Shown piece after piece: positions 13,501 through 61,811 of a stretch of 64,000 nucleotides of DNA; within the stretch, counting starts at the first letter, position 1, and every line of letters begins with the position of its first letter. Below the pieces are notes generated by a model. It made no database searches. It was given only the letters and a program-made list of their open reading frames with translations, and was not told the origin of the DNA. Origin of the DNA: Seonamhaeicola sp. (GTDB lineage Bacteria > Bacteroidota > Bacteroidia > Flavobacteriales > Flavobacteriaceae). The translations under genes and the position numbers were made by a program. The DNA lies in the NCBI RefSeq assembly GCF_028281565.1, contig NZ_JANQJQ010000041.1:62001-126000 (forward strand). Reading direction: 5' to 3'.

Positions 13501-13663
13501 TACCCGGTTGTAGTATTTTATATATAGTCTTGATTTATCTGGTTTTTAAGGGGTTATCACGTTATTAAGAATTGTTAATTTCTTTTTGGCGAAAAGTTTT
13601 GTCCGTGCTAATTTTTTTAATCAGAATCGCCTACTTTAGTTGAATAACCAATCCCTAAACTTT

Positions 13664-32359: not shown

Positions 32360-32415
32360 TTTAAATAGAAATGAAGATGGAAAAAAATAAAAGAACTAAA
32401 AAAATAAACTTTAAA

Positions 32416-40511: not shown

Positions 40512-43500
40512 ATGACTAAGAATATTACGAATTTTAGGAGTGCTTTTTGGGGACTCTTTCTTTTCCCAATAATGGGGTTCTCTCAAGTGTTTAGTAGTGG
40601 TTTTGAAAATACTTTAGCCACAGAATGGGATGCTGCTACAAGTGGGACCGGCCTGGATGCTTTTGAGATTACAACTGCTGCCAAAAGAACAGGTAGCTAT
40701 GGTTTTCATATAAAGTTTAGTGCCAGTGGCCAAAAAGGTAATTTATGGACCTTCAAGAATATTAATTGGGAGTTAGGTAAAACTTACAGGGTGTCCTATT
40801 ATTTCAAAATTATTTCGCCGGATAACGGTAATGATTCCCATATAAAAACCTTTGAAAGCAATGGCACCAAGTTTGGGTCTCATTTATATGGTGATAATGT
40901 TATAAATGATGCCACTACAACTTCAGATTGGATAAAGTTTGAAGACGTCATTACTCCCGAAATGAATGATACAGGAGGATACGTTTTGTTCACTTTTAGG
41001 CCATCAGCCTCCGGAGGTGGAGAGTATTACTTCGATGATTTTTTAATTGAGGAGATTGTTCCGCCATCTGGGTTCTTTGTTGATATAAAAACAAAAGATA
41101 TTGTATCGGAGCCCTCTATAGAATGGGTGCAATTTGGTCCGGGGATGAGTGGGAATAATAAAATATTCTATCCACATCCCACAGATTCCGATGTCCATTA
41201 TATAAGTCCAAATATGGGGAATTCATATCGGTCTACAGATGGAGGTTTTACTTATGAAACCCTTATGGACCCGGATGGTAGATCTTACAAGTCTGGTCAT
41301 AGAGGTCCGGTAGCTTTTTATTCGCTTGATTTTTCAAGGCAAGATGCCAGTTTTGGTTTGTCTACAGGAAGTGTTAAGGGAGGCCTTTATACAACTTCAG
41401 ATAAAGGAAAAACATGGTCGCTTGTAGAATCAGCTCAGGGAGTAGTGGGCGACAACTATTTATCAGTGGTTTCGGTAGACCCTAAAAATGACAACATTTG
41501 GTTTTTGGGAGTAGGTAGAATGCGGCATTATGGAAAATTGTCTTACCCGCAATCAAACCCTAAAGGCAGTTTTGTTGACCCCGATGCTAATGGCAGACTT
41601 TGGAAAAGTACGAACAAAGGACAAACGTGGACGCTTTCAAATTCAGGGATAAATTCCAATGCAGAGTTTAGCCATATTTTGGTTGATCCTGTAGATAGTT
41701 CCATTGTATATGCAGGAACAAATTATGGCTTTTATAAAAGTACAGATGGAGGCGTCACCTGGGCTTTAAAATCCAATGGGATAGACCATGACATGATTCT
41801 CTCAATGGATATGCATCATGATCAGGTGACTGATCAGGTCACGCTTTTCGCCTTAAGTAATATTATATGGAAAGCTGCTGCCAGTGGAAACTCTGTAGAA
41901 CATGACCAGGGTGGTGTTTTTAAAAGTACCGATAAAGGAGAAACCTGGACTAACCTTAATGGTAATTTGCATATTGATTTAAGCGAATTTAATGATGACA
42001 ACGATGTTAAGAAAAGTTATTATCAAACCGTCGCCCATTATTTTGGCTTGGGAAGTTGGACGGATGCACAAACGGCATACCCGGTCTTGCCTACTAGTAT
42101 AACCACCAGATTTAATACAATTACCGTTGATCCCAATGATGTCAATAACTTATACCTGGTTAATGAATACTCCAATGCCTCAGATAATAATTTTAAGCCA
42201 GGGCAAATTTGGAGAACTAAAAATGGTGGCGCTGATTGGTATGTAACTTTTAGGAACGGTAAAAACTGGAATAATGGTAAATATGATTCTTATTGGGTAA
42301 CACAGCGAAATAACCCTATGGGATCCAATGTTACTTTTAAATATAAAAGTGATTGGTTGAATAGAGATGGTTATGAGCGCAAGGGTTGCAATTACGCCAA
42401 GTTTAGTGCAGATGGTTCCGTATTGTATACGCAATTAGCAAAAATTGGTTTTGTGTCTTATGATAAAGGGGACACATGGGTAGATATTGATGATGAAGCA
42501 GCCGATGAACCTGGCTCTGCATTAGATGGTTGGGTAGGTGCAGGAAACAGTAATGTGCCCGGTCATGGGTTATATCAATCGCCTTTATGGCCTGGAAAGG
42601 TGTTTTGTCCGTCAGGAGAAAATAGTTTATGGATTACCAATGATGAAGGTGAAACGGTGAGGTCTGGAGCTCAAGGAGCTTCAGTAATGCATTTGGTTTT
42701 CAACAATAGTGGTATTAGACAAGAGCATTCCGTTAGTTCGGTGGTGGTACACCCAACTGATAAAGATACCTGGTACGCCACTTTTTTTAGACAGGCCGGT
42801 AGAGGGGAATTTTATAAAAGCACCGATGCTGGTGCTAACTGGACTTCTATAGGAACGCCAATTCCGCAACCTTGGGATCCGGCACCTGCCGGAAGTGGCG
42901 ATCAGGCTGTCCATCAGGTAGGTTTAATGATCGATAAAAATAACCCAGATAATATATATTTCTGTGTACCCAAATCTTCTAAAGATATAGAGTGGGTAGG
43001 GGATAGTTGTCAAAGTTGGGGTGTTCATAAATCCTCGGATGGTGGTGTGACTTGGTCTGAAATAAACTCTGGTTTGCCAAGTTCATTAGATGTCGCCAGG
43101 ATAGCTTTTGACCCTAACGATACTAATACACTTTACGCAGCCGTCATTGATAATGGGGGCGGTTTATACAAATCTACTAATGGCGGAACTTCATGGAGTG
43201 AGGTGGCATCCACGACTTCAATTTCAGGATCTTCTGGAATCAATGATATTCATTTTGATGTTGACGGTAAAGCCTATATAACAGCTGGTTTTAAAAATGT
43301 AGGAGCTGATGACGGAGGGCTATGGGTAAGTGATGATAACATGTCAACTTGGACCAAAATTTTTGATTACCCTTGGACAAATAGAGTAGAAGTATCTAAA
43401 CTTGATACAAGAACTATTATGGTGTCAACATTACCCAATAATAATGTCGACAACAGAAACGGAGGTACCTATTTATCTAAGGACTCTGGTCAAACATGGG

Positions 43501-43886
43501 TGAAATTCAATAAAGGTAACGGGCAATCTGATAGAGTGAATGATATTGCTATAGATTATACCGTACCCGGAAAATATTATACCTCCGTACGCGGTAGTGG
43601 TTGGTATATGGCTGTAGATCCTAATCCTAATAGTTTAAATGTTGAAGATAAAATCAAGAATGATAATATTTTGGTTTACCCCAACCCAACTTTTGGAGCA
43701 TTACAGGTTAAGGGCTTGTTGGGAAACTTGGAGTTAATGGTGTACTCCATTGAGGGTAAATTGTTGATTCGTCAAAAGAGACATGGGGACCAACCGTTCG
43801 ACCTTTCTTCCTTAAACCATGGACTTTATGTTTATGAAGTAACTGATGGGACCATAATAAAAACAGGTAAAATTATAAAAGATTAG
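40512..43886 (+). CDS. T9SS-secreted Asp-box beta-propeller protein with N-terminal CBM (putative glycoside hydrolase)
   Basis: The protein has 1124 residues. After a signal peptide (1-25) comes a CBM4/9-like sandwich (about 27-180; SGFENTLATEWD, YYFDDFLIEEI). A large propeller region (about 190-1035) follows with at least ten Asp-box motifs of the S-T-D-G-G-x-T-W type (SYRSTDGGFTY, FYKSTDGGVTW, VFKSTDKGETW, VHKSSDGGVTW, LYKSTNGGTSW). The last 75 residues (YPNPTFGALQVKG) are a T9SS sorting domain. Multi-bladed Asp-box propellers occur in GH74 and sialidase-like enzymes, but no known catalytic signature can be assigned and there is no sialidase FRIP motif. The 877-residue protein at 55155-57788 is a paralog without CBM or sorting domain. 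It starts the operon, with the next gene 2 bp away. Confidence 0.8.
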   Translation: MTKNITNFRSAFWGLFLFPIMGFSQVFSSGFENTLATEWDAATSGTGLDAFEITTAAKRTGSYGFHIKFSASGQKGNLWTFKNINWELGKTYRVSYYFKIISPDNGNDSHIKTFESNGTKFGSHLYGDNVINDATTTSDWIKFEDVITPEMNDTGGYVLFTFRPSASGGGEYYFDDFLIEEIVPPSGFFVDIKTKDIVSEPSIEWVQFGPGMSGNNKIFYPHPTDSDVHYISPNMGNSYRSTDGGFTYETLMDPDGRSYKSGHRGPVAFYSLDFSRQDASFGLSTGSVKGGLYTTSDKGKTWSLVESAQGVVGDNYLSVVSVDPKNDNIWFLGVGRMRHYGKLSYPQSNPKGSFVDPDANGRLWKSTNKGQTWTLSNSGINSNAEFSHILVDPVDSSIVYAGTNYGFYKSTDGGVTWALKSNGIDHDMILSMDMHHDQVTDQVTLFALSNIIWKAAASGNSVEHDQGGVFKSTDKGETWTNLNGNLHIDLSEFNDDNDVKKSYYQTVAHYFGLGSWTDAQTAYPVLPTSITTRFNTITVDPNDVNNLYLVNEYSNASDNNFKPGQIWRTKNGGADWYVTFRNGKNWNNGKYDSYWVTQRNNPMGSNVTFKYKSDWLNRDGYERKGCNYAKFSADGSVLYTQLAKIGFVSYDKGDTWVDIDDEAADEPGSALDGWVGAGNSNVPGHGLYQSPLWPGKVFCPSGENSLWITNDEGETVRSGAQGASVMHLVFNNSGIRQEHSVSSVVVHPTDKDTWYATFFRQAGRGEFYKSTDAGANWTSIGTPIPQPWDPAPAGSGDQAVHQVGLMIDKNNPDNIYFCVPKSSKDIEWVGDSCQSWGVHKSSDGGVTWSEINSGLPSSLDVARIAFDPNDTNTLYAAVIDNGGGLYKSTNGGTSWSEVASTTSISGSSGINDIHFDVDGKAYITAGFKNVGADDGGLWVSDDNMSTWTKIFDYPWTNRVEVSKLDTRTIMVSTLPNNNVDNRNGGTYLSKDSGQTWVKFNKGNGQSDRVNDIAIDYTVPGKYYTSVRGSGWYMAVDPNPNSLNVEDKIKNDNILVYPNPTFGALQVKGLLGNLELMVYSIEGKLLIRQKRHGDQPFDLSSLNHGLYVYEVTDGTIIKTGKIIKD

Positions 43887-43888
43887 GC

Positions 43889-44599
43889 ATGAAGTGTAAT
43901 AAAATTATATGTTGGGCCTTTTTGTTACTGGTAATCAGCGGATATGGTCAAGGCAAAAAGGTTCAACCTATCGAAGTAAAAAAAGGAAAGTTGTTATTTT
44001 CAGATGATTTTGAAACGGGAACCTTAGAAAGGCATTGGGAAGTAAGAGAACGATTCAAAAATGGTGCATACGCAGTTGAAAATGGCCACCTCAAAGGGAA
44101 ACAGCTAAAGGGCGTAAATCATGGTTCCGTGATGCGTGTGAAATTCGATTATTCTGATATCATTGTTGAATTTGACGTAAAATTCAATGGTGGCGAACGT
44201 TTTAACATCGTAATGGATGATAGCACCAATACAACTTCATATTGGGGGCATATTCAGCGGGTTTCTTTTTCTAAAAATGGATTCAGAATTAAAGATGATA
44301 AAACGGGCGGGATGGATTTGAAAATTCGTGAGGAAATAAAAAATAATCCAAAGCGAGCGGAAGAATTAAAGCCATTCTTGGATTCTAAATCAGTCAATAC
44401 CAAATTCAATTTTAAAGAGGGGCAATGGTATCATGTAAAGATTATTAAAAAGGGAGCTATTCTGCAATGTCAAGTCGGAGATGTGATTGGGCGCTTAAAA
44501 TCGGAAGGCATTGCCCATCCCGTTCTAAATAAGTTTGGACCAACAGTGGTTGGAGACCATTTTTTGTTTGACAATTTTAAAATGTGGCAAATTAAATGA
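43889..44599 (+). CDS. Secreted LamG/DUF1080-like protein
   Basis: The protein has 236 residues. A signal peptide (1-21) precedes a single concanavalin-type beta-sandwich (LLFSDDFETGTLERHWEVRERFKNG, VEFDVKFNGGERFNIVMDD, EGQWYHVKIIKKG, FLFDNFKMWQIK). The fold and motifs are close to the DUF1080 family (Pfam PF06439) but more diverged than the two clear members in the same operon, and the LFNGKDLxxW signature is missing. The start is 2 bp after the propeller gene's stop, so the two are almost certainly co-transcribed. It may bind sugar or act like its DUF1080 neighbours on 3-keto sugars; the function is inferred from context only. Confidence 0.7.
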   Translation: MKCNKIICWAFLLLVISGYGQGKKVQPIEVKKGKLLFSDDFETGTLERHWEVRERFKNGAYAVENGHLKGKQLKGVNHGSVMRVKFDYSDIIVEFDVKFNGGERFNIVMDDSTNTTSYWGHIQRVSFSKNGFRIKDDKTGGMDLKIREEIKNNPKRAEELKPFLDSKSVNTKFNFKEGQWYHVKIIKKGAILQCQVGDVIGRLKSEGIAHPVLNKFGPTVVGDHFLFDNFKMWQIK

Positions 44600-44652
44600 T
44601 CGAAACCACTATTCTTAAAAAAGCTTTTAGGACACCTAAAATGTAAATACTT

Positions 44653-45702
44653 ATGAAACAGGGAAAATTAAAAATATGTTCTATTGGTCTAATTCTTTTT
44701 GGGGTCTTGTTTGTTGGATGTAAATCTGATAAAAAAGTACCCGTTGAAAAAACAGAACCCATTGATAAAATAATTGGAGATTGGGCGTCTTTCTTACCTA
44801 GCGGACATTCCATTTGGATGACTTTCTATAAAAAAGATGGCGAGCTCACAGGAGAAATGTGGAATGTGGGCATGAGACGAAACATTGAAGGTCCGACGAT
44901 TAAAAATGATACTTTATTTTTCAAAAGACAAATGAAAGTGGGAAAACCCAATTATATCGGAGGGCCTCCAACCGGAGACAAAATACTTGTCGATCATAAA
45001 GCATATGTTAAGGCAGATAGGCTTCACCTCATTATGAATATCCCTCAAGATCAAGGCAAAACTAAAGTGGCTGAATTTATAGCAAAACCACTGCCTCAGT
45101 TACCTATAAAACCAGATTTAAGTAAGGTGACATTTGGTGACCCTATAGTGCTTTTCAACGGAAAAGATTTAGAGGGCTGGAAATTGACTAATGAAAATCA
45201 AAAGAACGGTTGGAGTGCAAAGCATGGTGAATTGGTCAATGATACCCCTAAACGAAGTTTCGACCCCTTTTCAAATTATGGTAATTTAAGAACGATACAA
45301 GAGTTTAATGATTTTAATCTGCAGATAGAATTTAATGTGCCCAAAGGCGGGAACAGTGGTATTTATCTTCAAGGAAGGTATGAAGCTCAAGTTGTTGACA
45401 GAGATAGCAAAATGCAAGGCAAAATAGGAGTAGGTTCCATTTTTTCTCGTATAAAGCCTTCGGAGAATGTAGGTTTAGAGGGTGGGAATTGGCAGAAATA
45501 TGATATCACATTAGTAAACAGGCATATTACTATTGTTTTAAACGGACAGAAAGTGATCGATAATGAACCGCTAATTGGGCCTACCCAAGGTGCTTTAAAT
45601 GCTGATGTTACCAAGCCCGGGCCCATTTATTTGCAAGGTGATCATACCTTGGTGAAGTACCGCAATATTATTTTAAAACCAATACAATACACAGATATAT
45701 AA
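44653..45702 (+). CDS. DUF1080 (3-keto-disaccharide hydrolase family) lipoprotein with N-terminal lipocalin-like domain
   Basis: The protein has 349 residues. The lipoprotein signal ends at C23 (FVGCKSDKK). Residues about 35-150 form a beta-rich lipocalin-like domain (IIGDWASFLPSGHSIWMTF, DRLHLIMNIPQDQG). The DUF1080 domain fills about 165-345: LFNGKDLEGWKLT, FNDFNLQIEFNVPKGGNSGIYLQGRYE, and GPIYLQGDHTLVKYRNIILKP. PF06439 members are associated with 3-keto-glycoside breakdown, acting after a Gfo/Idh/MocA enzyme oxidises C3. Such an oxidoreductase is two genes downstream, which supports that role here. Confidence 0.82.
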   Translation: MKQGKLKICSIGLILFGVLFVGCKSDKKVPVEKTEPIDKIIGDWASFLPSGHSIWMTFYKKDGELTGEMWNVGMRRNIEGPTIKNDTLFFKRQMKVGKPNYIGGPPTGDKILVDHKAYVKADRLHLIMNIPQDQGKTKVAEFIAKPLPQLPIKPDLSKVTFGDPIVLFNGKDLEGWKLTNENQKNGWSAKHGELVNDTPKRSFDPFSNYGNLRTIQEFNDFNLQIEFNVPKGGNSGIYLQGRYEAQVVDRDSKMQGKIGVGSIFSRIKPSENVGLEGGNWQKYDITLVNRHITIVLNGQKVIDNEPLIGPTQGALNADVTKPGPIYLQGDHTLVKYRNIILKPIQYTDI

Positions 45703-45713
45703 TCTATTAAAAA

Positions 45714-48185
45714 ATGACAAACCTTATAAAACCACTAATTTTATTTATTGTAATTGCGCTGGCTGGATGTGCAAATTCAAGTGATGCAAATCTGTTTAAA
45801 AACACAAAAGAAAATTTTGACTTCGGATGGAAATTTTATGCAGGAGCAGTTGAAGGAGCAGAAGCTCTAACCTTTGATGATTCAAAATGGCGCGATGTGG
45901 ACTTACCACATGATTGGAGTATTGAAGGCGAATTTAGTAAAGACAACCCGTCTTTTTCAAGAGGTGCTTGGTTACCTGCTGGTAAGGTAGTTTATCGAAA
46001 AACGTTCATGGTTGATGCCAATAAAAAAGATAAGCGTTTCGTAATCTATTTTGACGGTGCCTATAGAAATTCTGAAGTGTTTATCAACGGACATAGTTTG
46101 GGGAAACGCCCACTGGGTTATATCGCTTTTCACTACGATATGACTGACTACATAAATTTTGGTGAAGAAAATGTTATCACGGTGACTTTAGATAATTCTG
46201 AGCAGCCCGGGTCGCGCTGGTATACCGGCACAGGTATTTATCGCCATGTTAAACTAATAACAACAGAAAAGATTTTTGTGCCGGTTTGGGGGAATTATAT
46301 CGTAGCTGATAACTATTCGGACGAATCGGCAGATATCAAAATTGAGACCACTGTTAAAAACGATTTTTCTCAACCAAAAGAAATTACCGTTAAGCAATTT
46401 GCAATTGATGCCAATGGAAATGTTGTGGCGGAAACGAGTACTTCTAAATCATTAAAAGCCAATTCGGAGGCAAAAATAAATACAATTGTAGTCATTAAAA
46501 ACCCTAAAATTTGGAGTCAAGAAAAACCCAATCTTTATACAATAAAGACAGAGTTGATTTCTGAAAACAAAGTGGTTTATGAGGAAACAAACACCACAGG
46601 AATTAGAACTCTAGAGTACAGTGCTGCTGAAGGTTTTAAATTAAACGGAAAACCAACTAAGTTAAAGGGTGTTTGCTTGCACCATGCGGGAGGCCCTTTA
46701 GGTGCAGCTATTTACGAACGTACCGTAGAGCGTCAGTTGGAAAAACTTCGCGAAATGGGTTGTAATGCCGTGAGAACGGCTCATAATCCTTTTTCAGAAG
46801 AGTTTATGGATGTATGTGATCGTATGGGGTTTTTAGTAATGAACGAATGTTTTGATGAATGGGAAATCGCTAAAAACCCAACCACTGTTCAAGATGGGAA
46901 AAAAAAGCGCATTCCTGTAAAGTTTTATGCGCATAAGTTCAAGGAATGGGCAGATAGGGATTTAAGAGACTTTCTTTTAAAAGACCGTAATCACCCATCG
47001 GTCATCATGTGGAGTATTGGTAATGAAATTAAGGAAATGAGGGTGCCAGATGGTATTCCTATAGCCAACCGATTGGCAGCTATAGTACATGAGTTAGACT
47101 ACCGTCCGGTAACAAATGGTGTTAATGGGTATAATCCAAAAAAAATGGATGCCGGGCCTTTGCAAGAAGCTATAAGAACCAGCGATGTATTGGGGTATAA
47201 CTATATATTGGAAAAACGTTTGAATCATGAACAAAACCTAAACCCTGATAAAATGTCGGTGTTTACAGAACACCAATCGGCACAGAGCTTTTATCCAAGA
47301 GGTACTTATTTATTTGGAGACGCTAAAAAAGCTTGGTGGGATAAGTTCGGTTATAAGATTGATGAAGCTTATGATTGGGTTGAAGATAGAGATATTAGGG
47401 GGATTCCAGGTATGGAGGCTTGGAATTTAGCAAAGCAGGATGCTAATGTGAGCGGCATCTTTATATGGACAGGTTGGGATTATTTAGGAGAGACCATTCC
47501 ATTTGGTTGGCCTGCACGTTCATCTTCTTTCGCACCAATTGACTTGGCAGGTTTTCCTAAAGATGGTTACTATTTCTATCAAAGCCAGTGGGCAGATAAA
47601 CCTATGGTGCATATTTTTCCACATTGGAATTTAAAAGGGATGGAAGGCAAAAAAGTAACAGTTTATGGGTTTACCAATGGCGATGCCGTTGAGTTATTCC
47701 AAGACGGAAAGTCATTAGGGAAACGCAAAAATGATATTAACAGTGTAGAATATCAAAGTTGGGATGTTGTTTACCAACCCGGAGAATTAAAAGCGGTTTC
47801 TTATTTAAATGGAAAGCCTCATTCAGAAAAAATTGTAAAAACAGCTGGAGTTCCTGCAAAAATTAAAGTGGAAAGCCGTTGTTCTGAAATGAAAGCGAAT
47901 GCCCAAGATGTTATTTATGTAGAATGTACAATTGTTGATAAAGATGGTATTGAGGTGCCTACAGCCAATAATAAATTGGAATTTGTAATTGATGGTCCAG
48001 CAGTTGTTGCCGGTGTTGGAAATGGTAATAATATGGGGTTGGAGAAGTTTCAATCCAATAGCATTTCGGCTTTTAATGGCAAAGCATTGGCGATTATAAA
48101 ATCGACCAAAGAAACAGGGGAAATAAAAATTAATGTGACTTCCGATGGAGTAGAAGGAAACACAATTGTTCTAAAATCCTTTTAG
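45714..48185 (+). CDS. GH2-family glycoside hydrolase lipoprotein
   Basis: The protein has 823 residues. The lipoprotein signal ends at C19 (ALAGC). The typical GH2 order follows: jelly-roll (about 30-185; DVDLPHDWSIEGEF, YFDGAYRNSEVFINGHSLG, GSRWYTGTGIYRHVKL), Ig-like domain (about 190-300), catalytic TIM barrel (about 305-610) with GVCLHHAGGPLG, RTAHNPF, acid/base E438 in MWSIGNEIKEM and likely nucleophile E519 in VFTEHQSAQ, then two C-terminal Ig-like domains (about 640-820). GH2 includes beta-galactosidases, beta-glucuronidases and beta-mannosidases; this build without a large fifth domain is common among beta-galactosidases of algal PULs. It is 11 bp behind the DUF1080 lipoprotein gene. 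The exact sugar cannot be read from the sequence. Confidence 0.93.
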   Translation: MTNLIKPLILFIVIALAGCANSSDANLFKNTKENFDFGWKFYAGAVEGAEALTFDDSKWRDVDLPHDWSIEGEFSKDNPSFSRGAWLPAGKVVYRKTFMVDANKKDKRFVIYFDGAYRNSEVFINGHSLGKRPLGYIAFHYDMTDYINFGEENVITVTLDNSEQPGSRWYTGTGIYRHVKLITTEKIFVPVWGNYIVADNYSDESADIKIETTVKNDFSQPKEITVKQFAIDANGNVVAETSTSKSLKANSEAKINTIVVIKNPKIWSQEKPNLYTIKTELISENKVVYEETNTTGIRTLEYSAAEGFKLNGKPTKLKGVCLHHAGGPLGAAIYERTVERQLEKLREMGCNAVRTAHNPFSEEFMDVCDRMGFLVMNECFDEWEIAKNPTTVQDGKKKRIPVKFYAHKFKEWADRDLRDFLLKDRNHPSVIMWSIGNEIKEMRVPDGIPIANRLAAIVHELDYRPVTNGVNGYNPKKMDAGPLQEAIRTSDVLGYNYILEKRLNHEQNLNPDKMSVFTEHQSAQSFYPRGTYLFGDAKKAWWDKFGYKIDEAYDWVEDRDIRGIPGMEAWNLAKQDANVSGIFIWTGWDYLGETIPFGWPARSSSFAPIDLAGFPKDGYYFYQSQWADKPMVHIFPHWNLKGMEGKKVTVYGFTNGDAVELFQDGKSLGKRKNDINSVEYQSWDVVYQPGELKAVSYLNGKPHSEKIVKTAGVPAKIKVESRCSEMKANAQDVIYVECTIVDKDGIEVPTANNKLEFVIDGPAVVAGVGNGNNMGLEKFQSNSISAFNGKALAIIKSTKETGEIKINVTSDGVEGNTIVLKSF

Positions 48186-48244
48186 TAAAAGATTACATTT
48201 TGTTTAAAAAACTGAGAATAATTTATAAGTAAATAATTTTAAAA

Positions 48245-49678
48245 ATGAAAAACTCAATATCTAGAAGGCATTTTATACAAACTTCAGCCACAGCGGCAGC
48301 TGGGGTAGCTATTTTGCCGCATTTAATAAGCGCATCTCCCAATAACGTTGTTAATGTTGCAGTTGTGGGTGTTAGCGGAAGGGGTATGAACAACTGGACC
48401 CAAATGTTGGGAATACGAGTAGACAACAGACGTATTAAAGCAGGATTGGAACCAGAAGGCGAGAGAGAACCCTATCCTCATGTTAGAATCGTAGCCATGT
48501 GTGATGTTGATGACAAAGTTGCAGCCAAAGCTCATAATATGATGCCTAAGGCTAAAAGGTTCAAAGACTTCAGGGTCATGCTAGATAAAATGCATAAGGA
48601 AATTGATGCAGTCATTGTATCTACGCCAGACCATACACATTTTGCCGCTACCATGGCTGCTATGGAGATGGGGAAGCATGTTTATGTTGAAAAACCTTTG
48701 GCACATAATATTTGGCAACTTAGAACACTTAAAAAAGCAGCTGAATATTATGGCGTTGTAACACAAATGGGTAACCAAGGGCATGCCTCTAATGGTATTA
48801 GAAGTGTAAAGGAATGGTATAATTTAGGTTTAGTAGGCGATGTTAAAGAAGTACATGCTTGGTTCAATGGCCCTAAGTTTAGTGAGAAAGGCTATTTTCA
48901 CAAACCAACTAACTATCCGCCTATAGAAGAACCAGTTCGTGATACATTGGCCTGGGATTTATGGTTAGGGCCAGCAAAAGATCGCGCTTATAGCCACTAT
49001 TATTTACCTAGATTTTGGCGTTCTTACTTTGAATTGGGTACAGGAATGTTGGGAGACTGGGGTTGTCATACCCTGGATGCACCGTTTTGGACATTAGATC
49101 TGGGAATGCCAACATCAATTGAACCTGTACATTCTAAATTAAGCCCAAGACCCACTGACTTTCTTCCAGACCAATCTGTTTTAAAATATGAATTTCCTAA
49201 AAGAGGAGACAAATCTGCCGTAACGTTGTATTGGTATGAAGGGGGCAAAAGACCAAAGAACAAACCAGAATGGCATTTTGAAAAAATGCCTAAAAGCGGT
49301 ATGATCATGGTAGGGGACAAACAATCTGTTTACACAAGTGGAAAACCATACGATCCTAAAATTTTAATGCCGGAAGCTGAATGGCAGTCTTTCAAAAATA
49401 AAGGTTGGAAAGAGAGTATAAGACGTATACCCAGAGAAAGTCCTCATGATGAGTTTATGGATGCCATTAGAGGAAAAGGTCCTAAACCAGGATCTAGTTT
49501 TGAGTATGGTGCCGATTTAACAGAGGTTGCTTTACTTGGTGCTATGGCGCAACGTTTTAATACTAAAATTGAATACGATGCGGAAAACATGAAAATAACC
49601 AATCAACCTGCACTGAATGATTACATTAAAGAAGCCTCTAGAGAAGGTTGGGCCTATGGTGAAAACCTTTGGAAATAG
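48245..49678 (+). CDS. Tat-exported Gfo/Idh/MocA-family oxidoreductase
   Basis: The protein has 477 residues. The N-terminus has a twin-arginine signal (SRRHFIQT, R7-R8, then an Ala-rich core), so the enzyme should be exported folded with its NAD(P) cofactor bound. The Rossmann domain (about 36-160) has VAVVGVSGRGMNNW (GxxGxG 42-47), VAMCDVDD and the family EKP motif at 149-151 (YVEKPLAHN). A C-terminal beta-sheet substrate domain follows (GNQGHASNGI, MLGDWGCHTLDAPFW). Related exported enzymes include GH109 and the sugar-3-dehydrogenases that begin oxidative glycoside cleavage. It sits between GH2 and a DUF1080 gene in one operon, favouring the 3-keto route. GH109-like activity is the alternative. 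Confidence 0.9.
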   Translation: MKNSISRRHFIQTSATAAAGVAILPHLISASPNNVVNVAVVGVSGRGMNNWTQMLGIRVDNRRIKAGLEPEGEREPYPHVRIVAMCDVDDKVAAKAHNMMPKAKRFKDFRVMLDKMHKEIDAVIVSTPDHTHFAATMAAMEMGKHVYVEKPLAHNIWQLRTLKKAAEYYGVVTQMGNQGHASNGIRSVKEWYNLGLVGDVKEVHAWFNGPKFSEKGYFHKPTNYPPIEEPVRDTLAWDLWLGPAKDRAYSHYYLPRFWRSYFELGTGMLGDWGCHTLDAPFWTLDLGMPTSIEPVHSKLSPRPTDFLPDQSVLKYEFPKRGDKSAVTLYWYEGGKRPKNKPEWHFEKMPKSGMIMVGDKQSVYTSGKPYDPKILMPEAEWQSFKNKGWKESIRRIPRESPHDEFMDAIRGKGPKPGSSFEYGADLTEVALLGAMAQRFNTKIEYDAENMKITNQPALNDYIKEASREGWAYGENLWK

Positions 49679-49710
49679 TTATAATACGTTATTAAAAACC
49701 TAAATTAAAT

Positions 49711-50469
49711 ATGAATTCAAATAAATATGTATTGAGAATCCTGTTAGTGTTCTCATTTATAACAGCATCAGTATGGGCACAAAAAACGGATTTTTACAAA
49801 TCTCAGGGCTATACTTCTTTATTTAACGGTAAAGATTTATCTAACTGGGTAATACCGGAAGAAAATAATAATAGTTGGTCTGTGTTTCAAGGTACTATTG
49901 ATTGTGCTTTAACCTATAGTGATAAGCAAAAGGCAAAAAGACACTTAACTACAAAGAAAAAATATAAAGACTTTGCACTACATATAGAGTGGCGTTTTAA
50001 AGGATATGGTGGCTCGTTTTACAAAATGCCTATAATTTTACCTAACGGTGATTATGTTCTTGATGAGCATGGAGAAAAGGTGGTTAGAATGAAGCCAAAT
50101 GCAGATTCAGGAATATTGCTTAAGGGTGTTGGACAAGTAAACCTTTGGTGTTGGGATGTTGGTTCGGGAGAATTATGGCATGTTAGAAACAACAAAAAAT
50201 TACCTTCAGAAGTACGAGCAGGAGCGGTGCCAACATCTAATCAGGATAACCCTGTTGGATCATGGAATGCTATGGATGTTTATGTTAAAGGAAATAGAAT
50301 CACTGTTGTGAATAATGGTATTATTGTAATAGATAATGCGTTATATCCTGGTTTGGATGTAGAAGGGGAAATAGCCTTACAACACCATGGAAAGAGAAGT
50401 AAAGATGGTAAGCTAGGGCCTACGGCAAGTTTGGTTCAATTTAAAAATATTTGGATTAAGGAGCTTTAG
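49711..50469 (+). CDS. DUF1080 (3-keto-disaccharide hydrolase family) secreted protein
   Basis: The protein has 252 residues. A signal peptide (1-24, ends VWAQ) is followed by one DUF1080 sandwich: YTSLFNGKDLSNWVIP, DFALHIEWRFKGYGGSFYKMP, MKPNADSGILLKGVGQVNLWCWDVGSGE, SWNAMDVYVKGNRITVVNNGIIV, GEIALQHHG. This is the clearest family member of the three in the operon and lies 32 bp after the Gfo/Idh/MocA gene, the classic pairing. It probably acts in the periplasm on the 3-keto product of that enzyme by eliminating or hydrolysing the glycosidic bond. It is the last gene before a strong terminator. Confidence 0.9.
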   Translation: MNSNKYVLRILLVFSFITASVWAQKTDFYKSQGYTSLFNGKDLSNWVIPEENNNSWSVFQGTIDCALTYSDKQKAKRHLTTKKKYKDFALHIEWRFKGYGGSFYKMPIILPNGDYVLDEHGEKVVRMKPNADSGILLKGVGQVNLWCWDVGSGELWHVRNNKKLPSEVRAGAVPTSNQDNPVGSWNAMDVYVKGNRITVVNNGIIVIDNALYPGLDVEGEIALQHHGKRSKDGKLGPTASLVQFKNIWIKEL

Positions 50470-50597: not shown

Positions 50598-51545
50598 CTA
50601 ATATATAAATAGCGAAAAATGGCAGGATTTTATTTCCTTTGGTTTTAGCGTGGCCACTTGTGGTTTTTCTTCAATGGCCAAAGGCGATTCTTGCCCGTCA
50701 TGGTGTCCGATCATAGGTTCAATAGCAAGTATTGGCTTATCGTTAGGAGCCCAAAGGTTTAGATTGTTGAAATTACCAATATTGATTTCAATAAATGGTT
50801 TTTTCCCTTTTTCTGCGATACCTACAACAGTGGTTTTAGGAAAATCGAGCAATAATATACCGCCTTGTTTAGGCATCCGCTGATCATCAATGTCTAAGGC
50901 GGTGTCATTTTTTAGAAATGAAAGAGCCGATGTTTGTTTTAAAGCCTTTACAATGGGGTGACGCTTTATCGTTACGGGTTTTGAAAATGTAAATTGATAA
51001 TCTTCCCGTGTTTTGTTGTCTCCCAAAGACAGGGCAAAAATAGGGTGCCCGCCCAAATCATAATACATGAAATCGTTACTTAAATTCTCAATTATAAACT
51101 CATGTATGAGCTCGTTTTCTTCTAGTTTATAAACTATCGTTAAACTAAAATCAAAAGGGTAGTTTTTTTTAGTTTTTGCCGAAGATTGAAACGTACAGGA
51201 TGCACTGGAGGGACTCGTTTTTTTTACTTCAATTTGGCTTCTCATTAACAATCCCATCGTAGGCATTGTGTAGTGCTGCCCCTTATATGTGTACGCATTA
51301 TCTTTATATCGAACGGCAACAGGAAACATCAAAGGCGCTTTGTTTTTCCATATCTTTTTATCGTTATGTATGTATTGTTTTCCAGTCTTTTTTGATGTAA
51401 CGCTTTGTATTTCTCCACCACGAGAACTGATTTCTACTTTGATAAATTCATTTTCAATTGAAGTAATTTGTTGTGCTCTGACGGATATCGAGAAAACAGC
51501 TATTATTGAACAAAGAGTTACGTTTCTGAATGATTTTAATATCAT
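50598..51545 (-). CDS. Secreted aldose 1-epimerase-like protein
   Basis: From the ATG at 51545 the protein has 315 residues. The frame stays open to 51689, but the extra 48 codons read through a hairpin repeat, while the ATG at 51545 gives a clean signal peptide (MILKSFRNVTLCSIIAVFSISVRAQ). The body has the galactose-mutarotase sandwich: NEFIKVEISSRGGEIQSV, the conserved YDLGGHPIF histidine, and IEPMIGHHD with the likely catalytic Glu. The family interconverts alpha and beta anomers of aldoses; the closest pattern is the LacX-type branch. Export suggests that it prepares released sugars in the periplasm. It lies 205 bp downstream of the sulfatase operon, so co-transcription is uncertain. Confidence 0.82.
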   Translation of the reverse strand: MILKSFRNVTLCSIIAVFSISVRAQQITSIENEFIKVEISSRGGEIQSVTSKKTGKQYIHNDKKIWKNKAPLMFPVAVRYKDNAYTYKGQHYTMPTMGLLMRSQIEVKKTSPSSASCTFQSSAKTKKNYPFDFSLTIVYKLEENELIHEFIIENLSNDFMYYDLGGHPIFALSLGDNKTREDYQFTFSKPVTIKRHPIVKALKQTSALSFLKNDTALDIDDQRMPKQGGILLLDFPKTTVVGIAEKGKKPFIEINIGNFNNLNLWAPNDKPILAIEPMIGHHDGQESPLAIEEKPQVATLKPKEIKSCHFSLFIY

Positions 51546-51574
51546 AAGTTTAATGTTTTTAATCGAAAAGAATT

Positions 51575-51709
51575 CCCCGATGCTTGCGGCGGGGTTTCCG
51601 CTGAAATTGTCATTCCCGTGAAAACGGGAATCTAAATAACAGAATTTCGGTTTTTGGCTCTGAGGCCAAAAATGAAGCCAGCGAAACACCCCTGTGGCTT
51701 GCCCTGGGG
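51575..51709. repeat. Intergenic hairpin repeat (REP/dRS3-like)
   Basis: ATTCCCGT-GAAA-ACGGGAAT (51612-51631) is a perfect 8-bp hairpin with a GAAA loop, matching the ATTCCC-N8-GGGAAT form of the Neisseria dRS3 repeat. A second 8-bp hairpin, TTTTTGGC/GCCAAAAA, follows at 51651-51672, and a GC-rich imperfect one at 51689-51709. Base composition is richer in GC than the neighbouring genes. It looks like a dispersed chromosomal repeat inserted between the epimerase and sulfatase genes; the second hairpin could also act as a terminator. Confidence 0.5.
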
Positions 51710-51750
51710 ATAGTTGGTTTCAAGAAATTCTTTTATTGTTTTTCTGAAAA

Positions 51751-53658
51751 TTATTCGCCAAAACGCTCATAGAGGTTTAGCTGCATCCTTCCCGGGTAGT
51801 CTACAATAATTTTGGTTTTACCGGGCCTTTTAACAACCTCTTTTTTATTCATTTTTAATTGACGTACGTAAGGCATGAGATTTCGACCATCTTCACCTAA
51901 CCAGTCAACAATATTTAGGACCATTAGAATGGCATAAGAATTTTGGTTAATTAAATCCTTAAGGCATGCCATGCCCTTTTCCTTTTCACCAGTACGGATG
52001 AGAAGCCAGGCTGCCATGGCTCGAATTTCATGGGATTCATCATTTAGGGCTTTTAATCCCGCTGCTTTGTTGTTTAAAAGAAAAGAACCAACTATGCCCC
52101 AATAACGCATTCCAAGATTTTTACTGTCTAGCATTTTGAATAACTCGTCTTGGTTGTTCTGGTTTTGTTCCAGAGCCAAGTTGGATGCATCCAACAGTAC
52201 CGGTACATTGTAAAGTTTTGGGTTACGTGCCATCTCATACATGGTGGTGTTGTTTTCTTTTGCCATACGTACACACTCTGTTTCCGGAATAAGGCCGACA
52301 TCGTAAATCGCTTCCTGTTTCTGGCGCATACGTTGGCGCATTTTATTAAGAACCTTACTATATTTAGGGTTCGTTGCCAGGTTATTGACATTATCAGGGT
52401 CATTATACATGTCATAAAGTTCTTCGCTGGCTCCTCTTGGAGCGAAAAATTTAGCCTGAATGTCGTTCGCAGTACCATCGGCTATGGCTTTTTCCCAAAC
52501 CTTGGCGGCTTCCATGTTCCACATATAATCCAAATGCTGCATCCATGGTGTGTATGGCATGTAACTTCGAATGTACAGGTAACGTTTGTCTGAAACGGCT
52601 CGGGCATTATCGATGCGCTCGTCAGCGCGTCCGCGGAAAGCAAAGTGATATTCTTGTTCAGGCTCTGTTTGCGGGCCAAGGAATATTTTTCCTTGCATGT
52701 AATCAGGTACTGTTGCCCCTGTAATACTCAACCAGGTTTTTGGCATGTCTACGAAGCTTACCAAACGGTTTATTTGTGTCCCCGGTTTGTCTGCAGGCCA
52801 CAAGTGTTTATATTTTTCAGGTATGCGGATGATTAGTGGACAGTGAAGTGTGTTCTGAAATAAGTAGCGTTTACTTCGTGGTAACACACCACCGTGGTCA
52901 GAGTTATAAATAATAATGGTATTCTCATACAATCCAGTTTCTTTAAGGTTTTTAATGACTTTGCCAAAATCACTGTCCATGATTTCCATGGCATCATGGT
53001 AGAGCGCATAGTTTTCACGCATACCCGGAACATCAGGATGATATTCCGCCAGTTTTACCTTTTTAGGATCATGTTTGGTGTTACTAACATCACCAAAGGC
53101 GTTGCTTTCATGCGATTTTTTTAAGTTAAACACCTGAAAAAATGGCTGTTGCTGTTTTAGATCGTTCCAATTAGGTGGCACTTTTCTGCTACTTTGGTCC
53201 CAACATTCACCGTCTTTACGGCTACCGATATTATAATCAGTTTTGTAAAAATTACCAGTATAATATCCCCTTTCTTTCAAGAAGTCCGGGTAATATTTGA
53301 TTTTATCATGAGGAATATCGTAAGAACAACGCATTGGGTGTGTTCCCATAGATACAGCATTTACCCCGGTTATCCAGGTACTGCGTGACGGTGCACAAAC
53401 GGGGCCAGAGGCATAAGCATGCATGTATTGAAACCCCTCTGTTGCGAATTTGTCTATGTTAGGGGTTGTAGCATTCCCATTGCCATAGCAGCCCAACCAA
53501 CTAGCACTGTTGTCTTCGCAAGTTAGCCAGAGTATATTTGGACGCTCTACAGATGCTCCGGATTGCGCTTTTGAAGTTGGTGTCAAGAAAATGAATCCCA
53601 ATGCAAACAGGCAATTGAGTACAGTTTTTTTAATGTTCATTGTTATTTTGGTTTTCAT
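51751..53658 (-). CDS. Exported sulfatase with helical-repeat C-terminus
   Basis: The protein has 635 residues. The first ATG is taken; an in-frame ATG at 53640 (MNIKKTVLNCLFALGF) gives an equally good signal peptide. The sulfatase core has WLTCEDNSASWLGCYG at the metal site (E-D instead of D-D) and active-site C88-A-P-S-R92. Other motifs are YNSDHGGVLP and QNTLHCPLIIRIPEKYKHL. From about residue 505 a helical, HEAT-like tail begins (RYWGIVGSFLLNNKAAGLKAL). It is a paralog of the sulfatase at 36495-38372, but with the canonical CAPSR site and Sec signal instead of a lipid anchor. It is the last tightly packed gene of the minus-strand operon, 16 bp after the gene before it. Confidence 0.9.
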   Translation of the reverse strand: MKTKITMNIKKTVLNCLFALGFIFLTPTSKAQSGASVERPNILWLTCEDNSASWLGCYGNGNATTPNIDKFATEGFQYMHAYASGPVCAPSRSTWITGVNAVSMGTHPMRCSYDIPHDKIKYYPDFLKERGYYTGNFYKTDYNIGSRKDGECWDQSSRKVPPNWNDLKQQQPFFQVFNLKKSHESNAFGDVSNTKHDPKKVKLAEYHPDVPGMRENYALYHDAMEIMDSDFGKVIKNLKETGLYENTIIIYNSDHGGVLPRSKRYLFQNTLHCPLIIRIPEKYKHLWPADKPGTQINRLVSFVDMPKTWLSITGATVPDYMQGKIFLGPQTEPEQEYHFAFRGRADERIDNARAVSDKRYLYIRSYMPYTPWMQHLDYMWNMEAAKVWEKAIADGTANDIQAKFFAPRGASEELYDMYNDPDNVNNLATNPKYSKVLNKMRQRMRQKQEAIYDVGLIPETECVRMAKENNTTMYEMARNPKLYNVPVLLDASNLALEQNQNNQDELFKMLDSKNLGMRYWGIVGSFLLNNKAAGLKALNDESHEIRAMAAWLLIRTGEKEKGMACLKDLINQNSYAILMVLNIVDWLGEDGRNLMPYVRQLKMNKKEVVKRPGKTKIIVDYPGRMQLNLYERFGE

Positions 53659-53674
53659 AATTATATTTTATGAA

Positions 53675-55138
53675 CTATTCTTGGTTAAATTTTTTAAGTT
53701 TCTTTTTGTATTCTGGGCGTTTGCTCCATGCTTTAAAATAGGGCAGGTATTCTGGGGATTTTGTCCATAATATACGCCCAATATCTGGTTGGGAAAGCCC
53801 TCCGGCATAATCGTTGCCTTTCACACTGCTTTCAACGGAACTATGCCATTCTGAGAAAGCTTTTATCATGTTATGAGCTATTTCAGTTTCCCTATCGATT
53901 AAGTTGTCAGATTCATCAGGATCTGTCTTTAAATGGTATAATTCGTAGCTGCTTTTGTCAATATCTTTTATGACTAGTTTGTAATGGTTATCTATCCAAG
54001 CGCCTTCCGCTCTCATTCTAAACGGAATGGGTTTTGTTCTTGATTTTATATCTTTTTGAAACAATGGCTTTAAGCTGGTTCCGTCAATAGGGTGAACCAT
54101 GCTGGAATTGGGCAGCCCTATAATATCTGCTACAGTTGGAAATATATCCATGGTAACAGCTGGAAAATCAGTGATTTGTCCTTTTTTTATCATTGCAGGC
54201 CATTCTATAATTGCTGGTACCCGAAGCCCACCTTCATACATTTCGCCTTTATAGCCTTTTAGCCCATTTACGGTTTCAGGGCCAAAAGCTTTTAAGCCAC
54301 CATTATCACTATTAAACCAAACCAAAGTATTGTGCCCTATTCCCATGTTACGGAGGCCCTTACGGAGTGAGCCAACACTTTCATCCATGGCAACCAGCTC
54401 ACCATAATGCTCTTGATGTGTTGCTTTTAAATCTTCAAACCCTTTTTTAGCCCTTTCTTCCGCTTTCCATGGCCCATGCGGACTTCCATACCAAATAACC
54501 ACAAACAAAGGTTGGTCGTTATTCTTTTCACGTTCCATAAACTGCAGTGCTTCATTAACTATTATAGCAGACGATTCGCCTTGTATTTCTTCAAAATTTC
54601 CGTTTCTGCTCATTATTGGGTTTATGTCGAAGTAGTTCGAGGTTGACAGCCAGTAATCGAACCCAAATGCGCCCGGGCTACACTTGTCACTTTTAAAAAT
54701 AGGAACACCGGGACCCTGTAATCCGTTCAAGTGCCATTTTCCAAAATGAGCTGTTTTGTAACCAGCATTTTTAAGGGCTTGAGCAATCGTTTTTTCCTGC
54801 CTTCTTAAGGCATAACCATGTGTATAGACGGCTGATCTATCATTAGAGCGCCCAGTTAACACACTTGCCCTTGTTGGAGAACATACTGGGGCCCCGGCAT
54901 AGAACCGATTAAATTGCAAACCATTATTTGCCATGTCATTCAGGTTTGGTGTTTTAAGGATAGGGTGGTCGTAATATCCGGTTTGGCCCCATCCTTGGTC
55001 GTCGGCCATGATAAGAATGATATTGGGCTTCGACTCGCTCAGGCTATCTGGTTTTTCATTCTGTGCAGATATGTGGCCTGAAATAGCAGCAAGAACAAAA
55101 AGCATGAGGGTTTGTAGTATGTTATGATAATGATTCAA
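53675..55138 (-). CDS. Exported sulfatase
   Basis: The protein has 487 residues. A signal peptide (1-25, ends GHISAQ) precedes a complete single-domain sulfatase: metal ligands in IMADDQGWGQTGYYDHP, active-site C86-S-P-T-R90 followed by ASVLTGRSNDR, FGKWHLNG, SDNGGLKAFGPE and MYEGGLRVPAIIEWP. It is the size of a basic S1-family sulfatase without accessory domains. It probably removes sulfate from imported oligosaccharides in the periplasm. Gaps of 16 bp on both sides place it inside the operon. Confidence 0.92.
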   Translation of the reverse strand: MNHYHNILQTLMLFVLAAISGHISAQNEKPDSLSESKPNIILIMADDQGWGQTGYYDHPILKTPNLNDMANNGLQFNRFYAGAPVCSPTRASVLTGRSNDRSAVYTHGYALRRQEKTIAQALKNAGYKTAHFGKWHLNGLQGPGVPIFKSDKCSPGAFGFDYWLSTSNYFDINPIMSRNGNFEEIQGESSAIIVNEALQFMEREKNNDQPLFVVIWYGSPHGPWKAEERAKKGFEDLKATHQEHYGELVAMDESVGSLRKGLRNMGIGHNTLVWFNSDNGGLKAFGPETVNGLKGYKGEMYEGGLRVPAIIEWPAMIKKGQITDFPAVTMDIFPTVADIIGLPNSSMVHPIDGTSLKPLFQKDIKSRTKPIPFRMRAEGAWIDNHYKLVIKDIDKSSYELYHLKTDPDESDNLIDRETEIAHNMIKAFSEWHSSVESSVKGNDYAGGLSQPDIGRILWTKSPEYLPYFKAWSKRPEYKKKLKKFNQE

Positions 55139-55154
55139 AACTTTTATTTATTAA

Positions 55155-57788: not shown

Positions 57789-57806
57789 AGTTTTTTTTAT
57801 TAATCT

Positions 57807-59300
57807 TTAGTTTCCGTCTTTAGGGTCTAAGTTTTTCACATCAGCGTGTCTAATATCTATTGGGCGCAGAAAAGGGTTACGGGCGGCAGGCATTTCATTA
57901 CGAAAGTTGATATACGCTCCAAAGATTTCATCCATAACTTCTGGGTTCTGTTTCATAACGTTGGTGGTTTCACCAATATCGTTTTCTAAATCGAATAAAT
58001 AATGTTTATTGTCTTCTATAAGCAATTTCCATTTCTCCATTCGGGCAGCCCCCATGCGGTTAGCGTACCAAAACAGGGCCTTATGTGGGTCTTCTTTATA
58101 ATCTCCACGCATCCAGGGAAGTAGGTTCACGCCATCTAAATTTGTGTATTCCGGGGTTTTTACATCAGCCGCTGCGCAAAGTGTTGGGTACAGGTCTAAT
58201 GTAGAAACAGGGTTGTCAATTACTTTACCATATTGCAATTGACCAGGCCATGATATAATATATGGAATGCGGATGCCGCCTTCCCACATAGTGCCTTTGT
58301 AACCGTTTAAAGGCTTGCATTGCCCAAGTAGATGATAGGGTGTTTTTTTAGGCCACCATGAAGGTATGTTTAGATGAACCGGATTGGCAGGACCGTTATC
58401 ACTTACCAAAGCAATGATGGTGTTTTCACGTAGTTTTTCTTTTTCAAGAACCTCAATGATTCTACCTATATTTTCATCAATGGAAATGGCCATGGCTGCG
58501 TATAATTGCATCACCTCAGACTTTAAATGACTGACCATTTTTTTATGCGATTTTTTTGCATGAAACGGAGAGTGTACGGCATTAAAAGCCAAGTATAAGA
58601 AGAACGGCTTGTCCTTGTTTTTCTGAATGAATTCTACACTTTGACGGCCACAGCGGTCTGTTAAATATTCATCGCCTTCGCGTTCTGGTCCCCACATCAT
58701 CATCTGGAAGCCTCCTTTTGGTTTGCGTACCCCATCAACACCTTTATAGCTCCCATCTGCCTCGGGGAAATAATTTGCTCCTGCCGAGGTTAGAGAAAAC
58801 TCATAATCGAAAGACGTTTCAGGGTATCCTTCCAAATTGTATTTACCTACAATAGCAGTGACGTATCCTGCATCTGAAAACGCCTGATTAATATGTTTGT
58901 GTGCTTTTGGTACAATGGTTTCTCTTTCGCGATGTTGCAGCTTATAAGTATCATGATTCCACTGAATTCCGAAGCGCTGTTGATAGCTGCCGGTTAGCAA
59001 ACCATGACGACTTGGGGAACATACTGGGGCAGAAACATAGCCGTTGGTGAATTTGATGCCTTCATTTGCAAGTTGGTCAATATTTTCAGTTTTAAAAGCA
59101 GTACCTCCGTAACAGGATGGGTCGGTATAACCCATATCATCAATATTGATAATGATTACGTTCGGCCGTTTTAAAACGTTTGATTGCTTGCTTTGAGCAT
59201 TTACTACTGTTGCCGTCCCTATAAGCAACCACAATAATGTGCTTATAAAAGAATGGAATTGTTGGAGTTTTATCTGTTTAAAAATTAATGCTGGTTTCAT
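57807..59300 (-). CDS. Exported sulfatase
   Basis: The protein has 497 residues. The N-terminus has a longer basic stretch and then a Sec signal (FISTLLWLLIGTATVVNAQ, cleavage near 36). The sulfatase core follows: IINIDDMGYTDPSCYGG at the metal site, active-site C94-S-P-S-R98 with HGLLTGSYQQRFG, VGKYNLEGYPE, LVSDNGPANP and MWEGGIRIPYIISWPG. The length is standard for a single-domain member. It is separated by 11 and 18 bp from its neighbours in the operon. The position of the sulfate it removes cannot be told. Confidence 0.92.
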   Translation of the reverse strand: MKPALIFKQIKLQQFHSFISTLLWLLIGTATVVNAQSKQSNVLKRPNVIIINIDDMGYTDPSCYGGTAFKTENIDQLANEGIKFTNGYVSAPVCSPSRHGLLTGSYQQRFGIQWNHDTYKLQHRERETIVPKAHKHINQAFSDAGYVTAIVGKYNLEGYPETSFDYEFSLTSAGANYFPEADGSYKGVDGVRKPKGGFQMMMWGPEREGDEYLTDRCGRQSVEFIQKNKDKPFFLYLAFNAVHSPFHAKKSHKKMVSHLKSEVMQLYAAMAISIDENIGRIIEVLEKEKLRENTIIALVSDNGPANPVHLNIPSWWPKKTPYHLLGQCKPLNGYKGTMWEGGIRIPYIISWPGQLQYGKVIDNPVSTLDLYPTLCAAADVKTPEYTNLDGVNLLPWMRGDYKEDPHKALFWYANRMGAARMEKWKLLIEDNKHYLFDLENDIGETTNVMKQNPEVMDEIFGAYINFRNEMPAARNPFLRPIDIRHADVKNLDPKDGN

Positions 59301-59311
59301 TGCTTATTCTT

Positions 59312-61792: not shown

Positions 61793-61811
61793 CCTTTTAT
61801 AATTGTTAATG

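Follow-up and report, generated by a model that had tools for sequence, protein, structure and literature searches.

A 64,000-nucleotide stretch of the genome of a Seonamhaeicola sp. (hereafter the window; positions 62001-126000 of contig C31 in a 5.27 Mb genome, G000) contains an operon that appears to carry an oxidation-elimination set for sugar cleavage, oxidising and then eliminating rather than hydrolysing. The operon lies in a sulfatase-rich polysaccharide utilization locus (PUL), apparently for sulfated sugars of algal type that are rich in fucose. We put the probability of this reading, which is drawn from sequence comparisons, at about 60%. Six intact forward-strand genes, W13 to W18, occupy 40512-50469 and are separated by gaps of 2, 53, 11, 59 and 32 bases:

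40512..43886, + strand: W13, Sortilin/Vps10-like propeller with a type IX secretion system (T9SS) tail (PF15902, 5e-30; PF18962)
43889..44599, + strand: W14, concanavalin-like sandwich related to DUF6250 (profile comparison and AlphaFold model)
44653..45702, + strand: W15, lipoprotein-like; PF06439 domain (1.2e-38) preceded by an N-terminal beta domain
45714..48185, + strand: W16, glycoside hydrolase family 2 (GH2), a beta-galactosidase relative (PF02836/PF02837/PF00703)
48245..49678, + strand: W17, Gfo/Idh/MocA oxidoreductase exported by twin-arginine translocation (Tat), candidate glycoside 3-dehydrogenase (PF01408, TIGR01409, NF058561)
49711..50469, + strand: W18, PF06439 protein with a variant motif (4.2e-30)

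The frames coincide with those of an initial annotation of this DNA. They are intact and their family matches, among them Sortilin/Vps10, are strong, so that the gene set is more than chance. The annotation had also described a GH2 enzyme and a secreted propeller packed into the same operon, which correspond to W16 and to W13 with its T9SS tail.

W17 had been described as a Tat-exported Gfo/Idh/MocA enzyme, and both parts of this description hold: PF01408 matches with an E-value of 4e-16, and the Tat signal scores 19.9 bits with TIGR01409, above the NCBIfam cut-off of 16.7 (with PF10518 of Pfam it scores 19.8 bits, below the cut-off of 22.7). The nearest named NCBIfam family is the BT_2158_fam glycoside 3-dehydrogenase (NF058561), at 330 bits, the next family reaching 68. 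A placement outside the sugar-3-dehydrogenase clades, which the initial annotation had named as counting against its reading, did not result: the nearest named family is of the sugar-3-dehydrogenase kind. The nearest solved chains are 8tdh (E 3.6e-58) and 8tdf (about 1e-58), followed by a chain at 3e-13. W17 carries GVSGRG at residue 42, EKP at 149 and GDWGCH at 270, and its EKP and GDxxCH motifs align with those of 8tdh; we take these two to have catalytic roles in glycoside 3-dehydrogenase and GVSGRG to be an NAD-binding motif. Among the 48 sequences of a W17 set, EKP is present in 43 and GDxxxH in 47. The tree of these sequences places W17 in a clade of nine (support 100/99) that comprises the window, Zobellia, Ochrovirga, two Lutibacter, two Maribacter, Labilibacter and Saccharicrinis, the flagged long branches all lying outside it. 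Assignment of W17 to GH109 was rejected, as no GH109-named family was found among its matches to Pfam (E<=1) or NCBIfam (E<=0.1) profiles, a collection that does not include CAZy profiles. The same genome encodes a 40% paralogue of W17 in a second sulfatase/GH29 cluster on contig C46, a stretch in which no PF06439 or AP_endonuc_2 match was found.

The initial annotation of two clear DUF1080 (PF06439) proteins is borne out by W15 and W18. In W15 the PF06439 domain covers residues 164-341 (about 45142-45675) and contains the motifs NSG, YEAQVVD and QGDH; in an alignment of 3osd and 8rr2, BT2157 has EYQVLD and QDHG, a pattern of E-x-Q-x-x-D and Q..H that W15 keeps. The run NSG ... E-x-Q-x-x-D ... 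Q-x-x-H is widespread among 59 collected PF06439 domains, fragments included: by loose patterns, 50 of the 59 contain the E-x-Q part and 55 contain the closing Q..H part. Putative active-site positions of the family are marked in a figure of PMC9765024. The structural model of W15 (pLDDT, the predicted local distance difference test, 81.2) matches the folds of 4qhz, 8v31, 8tda, 8rr2 and 9fbe, and its first 19 Protein Data Bank (PDB) hits are entries that the W15-type sequence profile also detects. Two of these structures (8tda and 8v31) are titled 3-keto-2-hydroxy-glucal hydratase and two (8rr2 and 9fbe) 3-keto-glycoside eliminase/hydratase. These similarities make W15 a fair candidate for a 3-keto-glycoside eliminase/hydratase. 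Judged by eye, the N-terminus of W15 is lipobox-like and that of W18 Sec-like.

The gene neighbourhoods of W17 relatives were compared in two samples, with attention to PF06439 and to AP_endonuc_2, a TIM barrel of lyase type. A contig scan gave 80 loci. Individual gene maps were made for 18, and a script counted all 80, of which 73 had an anchor gene. Within two genes of the W17 relative, these 73 loci hold 10 PF06439 and 11 AP_endonuc_2 genes among 256, compared with 3 and 0 among 267 genes at a distance of five or more; the counts, made with profiles built in this analysis, are of genes and not of independent events. For both families together the near/far contrast is 21/256 versus 3/267 (Fisher p 9e-5), and for AP_endonuc_2 alone p is 3e-4. 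Six members of the clade of nine have one or the other family within two genes, namely those of the window, Ochrovirga, both Lutibacter, Labilibacter and Saccharicrinis. Ochrovirga pacifica keeps W17 and W18 adjacent, as orthologues of 73% and 70% identity.

The second sample comprised 299 genomes of the same family; at E<=1e-120, W17 had 14 matches in 13 of them, one match being its own. Twelve regions were mapped, and the one other match outside the window, in G180, is the Ochrovirga locus of the first sample. PF06439, AP_endonuc_2 or GMC genes lie within two genes of 7 of the 13 non-window matches (two in G180, and those in G019, G169, G246, G017 and G004). A 50-56% relative of W17 is the last gene of a conserved locus in five flavobacterial cases, with a PF06439 gene directly adjacent. 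The layout in G019, G169, G246 and G017 is GMC, a gene, AP_endonuc_2, a gene, a second Gfo, AP_endonuc_2, PF06439 and the W17 relative (families were checked with Pfam in one locus, L213, the second Gfo elsewhere being assigned from its matching place and N-terminus). The second G180 copy is reduced: the first AP_endonuc_2 is absent and the gene at the second place scores E 4e-4. It is plausible that this layout represents a complete 3-keto-glycoside locus.

The neighbourhoods of W15 relatives were examined in 11 regions, which cover 12 of the 30 matches outside its own genome. The closest relatives found (57-59% identity, 684-685 residues) lie among sulfatases in two other genera. One of them (L142, 9873-11927) is a PF06439 domain fused, according to Pfam, to a BD-FAE/alpha-beta hydrolase esterase domain, and the other (L143, 8332-10389) equals it in length and resembles it in sequence. 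Around the former are sulfatases, GH29, GMC, Gluconate_2-dh3, two AP_endonuc_2 genes, SusC and SusD; around the latter are sulfatases, two AP_endonuc_2 genes and a hybrid sensor, with SusC/SusD matches in the adjoining stretch.

The Lutibacter and Maribacter orthologues of W17 have a sulfatase immediately adjoining on one or both sides and a GH29 gene in three of the four loci; no SusC/D was seen in the flanks examined. The Zobellia locus has SusC/D matches and no sulfatase match. At two further loci GH29 itself is close by. In L208 a W17-type Gfo precedes a SOUL-family gene, GH29 and genes for the use of L-fucose (fucP and L-fucose dehydrogenase above their cut-offs, a fuconolactonase-like gene below); in L212 the W17 relative adjoins GH29 in a similar gene order. 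No PF06439 or AP_endonuc_2 match was found in either stretch. These two loci suit an explanation in which W17 takes part in sugar catabolism rather than in linkage cleavage, oxidising or reducing a monosaccharide after its release, perhaps one related to fucose. We regard it as very unlikely, given that the cytoplasm is the expected site of fucose catabolism while W17 is an exported protein, and that the nearest named family of W17 acts on glycosides. Together with the settings of the W15 relatives and of the Lutibacter and Maribacter orthologues, the L208 and L212 contexts point to fucose-containing substrates as a class rather than to one glycan.

Several findings weigh against the presence of an oxidation-elimination set in the operon. 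The 330 bits of W17 compare with an NF058561 cut-off of 750; among the genes of this genome W17 ranks second for the family, after a match of 501 bits on contig C44, none exceeding the cut-off, and a W17 relative from a conserved locus also falls below it, at 378 bits. W18 lacks the E-x-Q-x-x-D motif and has GQVNLWCWD instead, together with LQHHG; its Ochrovirga orthologue likewise has QVNLWCWD in that place. Nine of the 11 W15 regions are not part of sulfatase/AP_endonuc_2 clusters (L146, which is among these nine, contains a single sulfatase and a weak AP_endonuc_2 match), and a W17-type Gfo occurs in none of the 11. For PF06439 alone, the near/far contrast around W17 relatives is weak (10/256 versus 3/267, p 0.05). 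The Zobellia and both Maribacter orthologues have no PF06439 or AP_endonuc_2 gene in flanks of up to 10 kb per side, none was counted in the more distant Bacteroidota loci L038-L054, and 6 of the 13 non-window matches of the second sample (G001, G249, G183, G020, G149 and G002) have no PF06439, AP_endonuc_2 or GMC gene within two genes. The closest relatives of W14 (52%) and W16 (67%) share a sulfatase cluster in G002, the 37 kb of which examined contain no W17-type or PF06439 match. The genome also has a separate, more canonical locus of 3-keto-glycoside type on contig C44.

With 9 of 11 regions that do not fit and a W17-type gene in none, W15-type PF06439 proteins were ruled out as a general marker of Gfo modules. 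W18 matches 4qhz, 3u1x, 4hxc, 3h3l and, apparently by chance, one kinase in the PDB at E<=1, and none of the titled 3-keto-glycoside lyases is among these sequence matches. Its role is thus less sure than that of W15, and it may have another role or substrate. The C44 locus (57000-86000) contains several GMC, PF06439, AP_endonuc_2 and Gfo genes, including the best BT_2158_fam match of the genome.

The missing E-x-Q of W18, the nine unfitting W15 regions, the several W17 orthologues with no known lyase gene nearby and the abundance of PF06439 (18 matches in this genome) would all fit a reading in which the PF06439 proteins are glycan-binding or ordinary hydrolase sandwiches, comparable to the endo-xanthanase THTE_1561 named in PMC9007349, and W17 is an NAD-dependent glycosidase or dehydrogenase that works by itself, the genes being neighbours and not one pathway. 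This is unlikely in view of the BT2157 motif retained in W15, the conserved adjacency of W17 and W18 in Ochrovirga, the five further flavobacterial loci in which a PF06439 gene adjoins the W17 relative directly and the lack of a GH109-named family among the Pfam and NCBIfam matches of W17. The initial proposal of oxidation and elimination by a Gfo enzyme with PF06439 partners is retained in part: family assignment, the W15 motif, phylogeny and the gene neighbourhoods of relatives support it, while the sub-threshold score of W17 and the altered motif of W18 do not.

The module might also be real and serve disaccharides or glucosides in general, being carried along by the operon and not acting on a sulfated, fucosylated glycan. 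According to PMC11300592, Bacteroides thetaiotaomicron requires BT2158, a periplasmic glycoside 3-dehydrogenase, to grow on trehalose, leucrose and palatinose; no sulfatase was seen in the examined stretches of the five conserved relative loci, and the canonical C44 locus lies in the same genome. We nevertheless consider such a general role distinctly unlikely: sulfatases immediately adjoin the Lutibacter and Maribacter orthologues of W17 and surround the closest relatives of W15, and the window genes are packed 2-59 bases apart.

The remaining operon genes do not appear to belong to the core. W14 had been taken for a third, diverged DUF1080 relative, an assignment that has to be withdrawn: it has no PF06439 profile match at E<=1, and a profile of four W14-type sequences reached a probability of 0.8% when compared with 13 of the W15 type and of 96.9% (E 1.6e-10) when compared with seven DUF6250 relatives. 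Two of these seven were checked with Pfam and are DUF6250 proteins with sub-threshold PF06439 matches (0.00056 and 0.0056). W14 itself has no direct Pfam match to DUF6250 (PF19763), the link running through the comparison with the seven relatives. AlphaFold predicts a sandwich (pLDDT 79.6) whose structural matches are spread over GH16, CBM66, PL7 and DUF1080 without singling out any of them, so that W14 is at best a distant cousin of PF06439 by fold; its N-terminus appears Sec-like by eye. Elsewhere in the genome, on contig C38, a DUF6250 relative of W14 (L162, 8614-9420) lies near GH29, SDR, FAA_hydrolase and FMN_dh genes, which look like a fucose or deoxy-sugar acid route. W16 scores 709 bits with the GalB model NF041463 (cut-off 900) and has a lipoprotein-like N-terminus by eye. 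W14 and W16 were rejected as parts of the core module because the sulfatase cluster that contains their closest relatives shows no sign of it. Along with the propellers, they probably serve the PUL in general.

Propellers of this Vps10/Sortilin-like family (about 870 residues) occur in 11 of the 299 genomes at E<=1e-80, that of the window included. The three copies in this genome are all in the present cluster (among them 40512-43886 and 55155-57788). A propeller of the W13/W22 type (for example L028, 2929-5520) is also found two genes downstream of the W17 orthologue in Zobellia and the two Maribacter loci. Five of the 13 genomes with W17 are among the 11 with propellers (hypergeometric p 3e-5, both draws being taken as from the same 299), a co-occurrence that may merely mark algal degraders. 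The propeller could be a backbone-cutting enzyme.

By Pfam and NCBIfam profiles, the PUL comprises a hybrid two-component sensor/regulator (HTCS), SusC, SusD, two GH29, GH2 and sulfatases. Beyond the operon it contains:

24800..29017, + strand: HTCS (PF07494, PF02518, PF00072, PF12833)
29207-32359, + strand: SusC-like (PF07715/PF13715)
32371-34290, + strand: SusD-like (PF07980/PF14322)
36495-38372 and 38523-40346, + strand: two sulfatases (NCBIfam sulfatase models, scores below the equivalog cut-offs)
50598..63416, - strand: convergent cluster of the same PUL with an aldose epimerase-like gene, four sulfatases, a second propeller and GH29

One additional gene accompanies these upstream of W13. 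The CxPxR motif is present in the sulfatase at 38523-40346 and in the others of the window except that at 36495-38372, in whose translation CSVAR takes its place. Beyond the right-hand end of the window the cluster continues with further sulfatases, a third propeller, GH28 and a GH29-like gene. Close to the cluster edge is a T9SS-tailed glucose/sorbosone-type pyrroloquinoline quinone dehydrogenase (6292-7911, PF07995). Two sulfatases, of 1798 and 1210 residues, are fused to Laminin_G_3 and T9SS tails (13640-19036 and 19279-22911), and two giant Laminin_G_3 proteins are encoded nearby (1235-6151 and 8087-13312). A scan for promoter- and terminator-like sites was uninformative, with 51 promoter-like (50.1 in shuffled sequences) and 14 terminator-like sites (11.4).

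The operon resembles several known systems in part. Like the window, the BT2157/BT2158 system of B. thetaiotaomicron pairs an exported Gfo with a PF06439 partner, W17 being nearest to BT_2158_fam and W15 having the motif of BT2157, which is described as a 3-ketotrehalose hydrolase (PMC9007349). It differs in that W17 scores under half of the family cut-off, that the window has two PF06439 genes, one with a variant motif, and that the surrounding PUL contributes sulfatases, GH29 and SusC/D. The flavobacterial loci with GMC, AP_endonuc_2, Gfo and PF06439 genes (L210, L213, L214, L215 and partly L218) resemble a glycoside-degrading operon described from Agrobacterium (PMC10628242). They share with the window a W17 relative directly beside PF06439, while the window operon is without GMC, AP_endonuc_2 and a second Gfo. 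The 3-keto-glucoside beta-eliminase of Agrobacterium is described as a putative sugar phosphate isomerase (PMC10628242) and may, we infer, be of the AP_endonuc_2 (PF01261) kind. The lactose route of Caulobacter likewise combines a DUF1080 (PF06439) protein, a proposed 3'-ketolactose hydrolase, with periplasmic oxidation at C3; unlike the Gfo of the window, the dehydrogenase there, LacABC, is described as membrane-bound (PMC9007349).

GH109 and its kin are, we assume, NAD-dependent glycosidases of the Gfo fold, and LacABC is presumably of the GMC type. W17 shares with GH109-type enzymes the fold and, in the reading proposed here, the oxidation-elimination chemistry that PMC10628242 describes for GH109; it differs from them in having no GH109-named match, and the window has separate lyase-type partner genes. 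A Gfo-type protein called GH109 is described as expressed, with its function unknown, in the arabinogalactan response of Maribacter (PMC11036162). In the literature searched (titles and the starts of abstracts, with few subscription journals, hence weak evidence of absence), no such module was described in PULs for sulfated glycans. The two key reports on oxidation-elimination chemistry reportedly appeared in 2024, in Nature and in Angewandte. The chemistry is already known; what appears new is the setting in a sulfated-glycan PUL and one altered PF06439 protein.

If the operon does carry an oxidation-elimination set, it would add a periplasmic route of this kind to an otherwise hydrolytic, sulfatase-rich PUL. 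W17 would be exported in the folded state via Tat with bound NAD(P) and, after trimming by sulfatases, GH29 and GH2, would oxidise C3 of the sugar at an oligosaccharide end. By analogy with solved relatives, W15, and possibly W18, would then cleave the activated linkage by beta-elimination and add water to the resulting 2-hydroxy-3-keto-glycal. W17 may finally re-reduce the 3-keto sugar, giving a redox-neutral cycle, which is the least certain step. Because GH2, GH29 and sulfatases are also present in the operon, at most some linkages would be cut by oxidation and elimination. The motive suggested in the initial annotation, that sulfation or an unusual sugar stops classical enzymes from acting, is speculative.

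A broader scenario, which we find doubtful as a whole, is that marine Flavobacteriaceae have repeatedly built oxidation-elimination cassettes into sulfated fucose-glycan clusters and that the Zobellia and Maribacter propeller is a new lyase. The cassettes would take the form of Gfo with PF06439 in the window, of Gfo with AP_endonuc_2 in Lutibacter, and of two AP_endonuc_2 genes with the PF06439-esterase fusion in two genera, one of them with GMC; their targets would be fucosyl or sulfated residues not found among the characterised substrates. The propeller two genes from W17 would then be its partner and found a new family of 3-keto-glycoside lyases.

Fucose-rich sulfated algal glycans are a carbon store with slow turnover. 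The means by which marine bacteria open them have long been in question, and PULs are read almost wholly as hydrolases, lyases and sulfatases. The proposal of oxidation and elimination is directly testable with few proteins. If it is true, the Gfo, PF06439, AP_endonuc_2 and GMC genes in such PULs would be bond-cutting enzymes and not 'other' genes.

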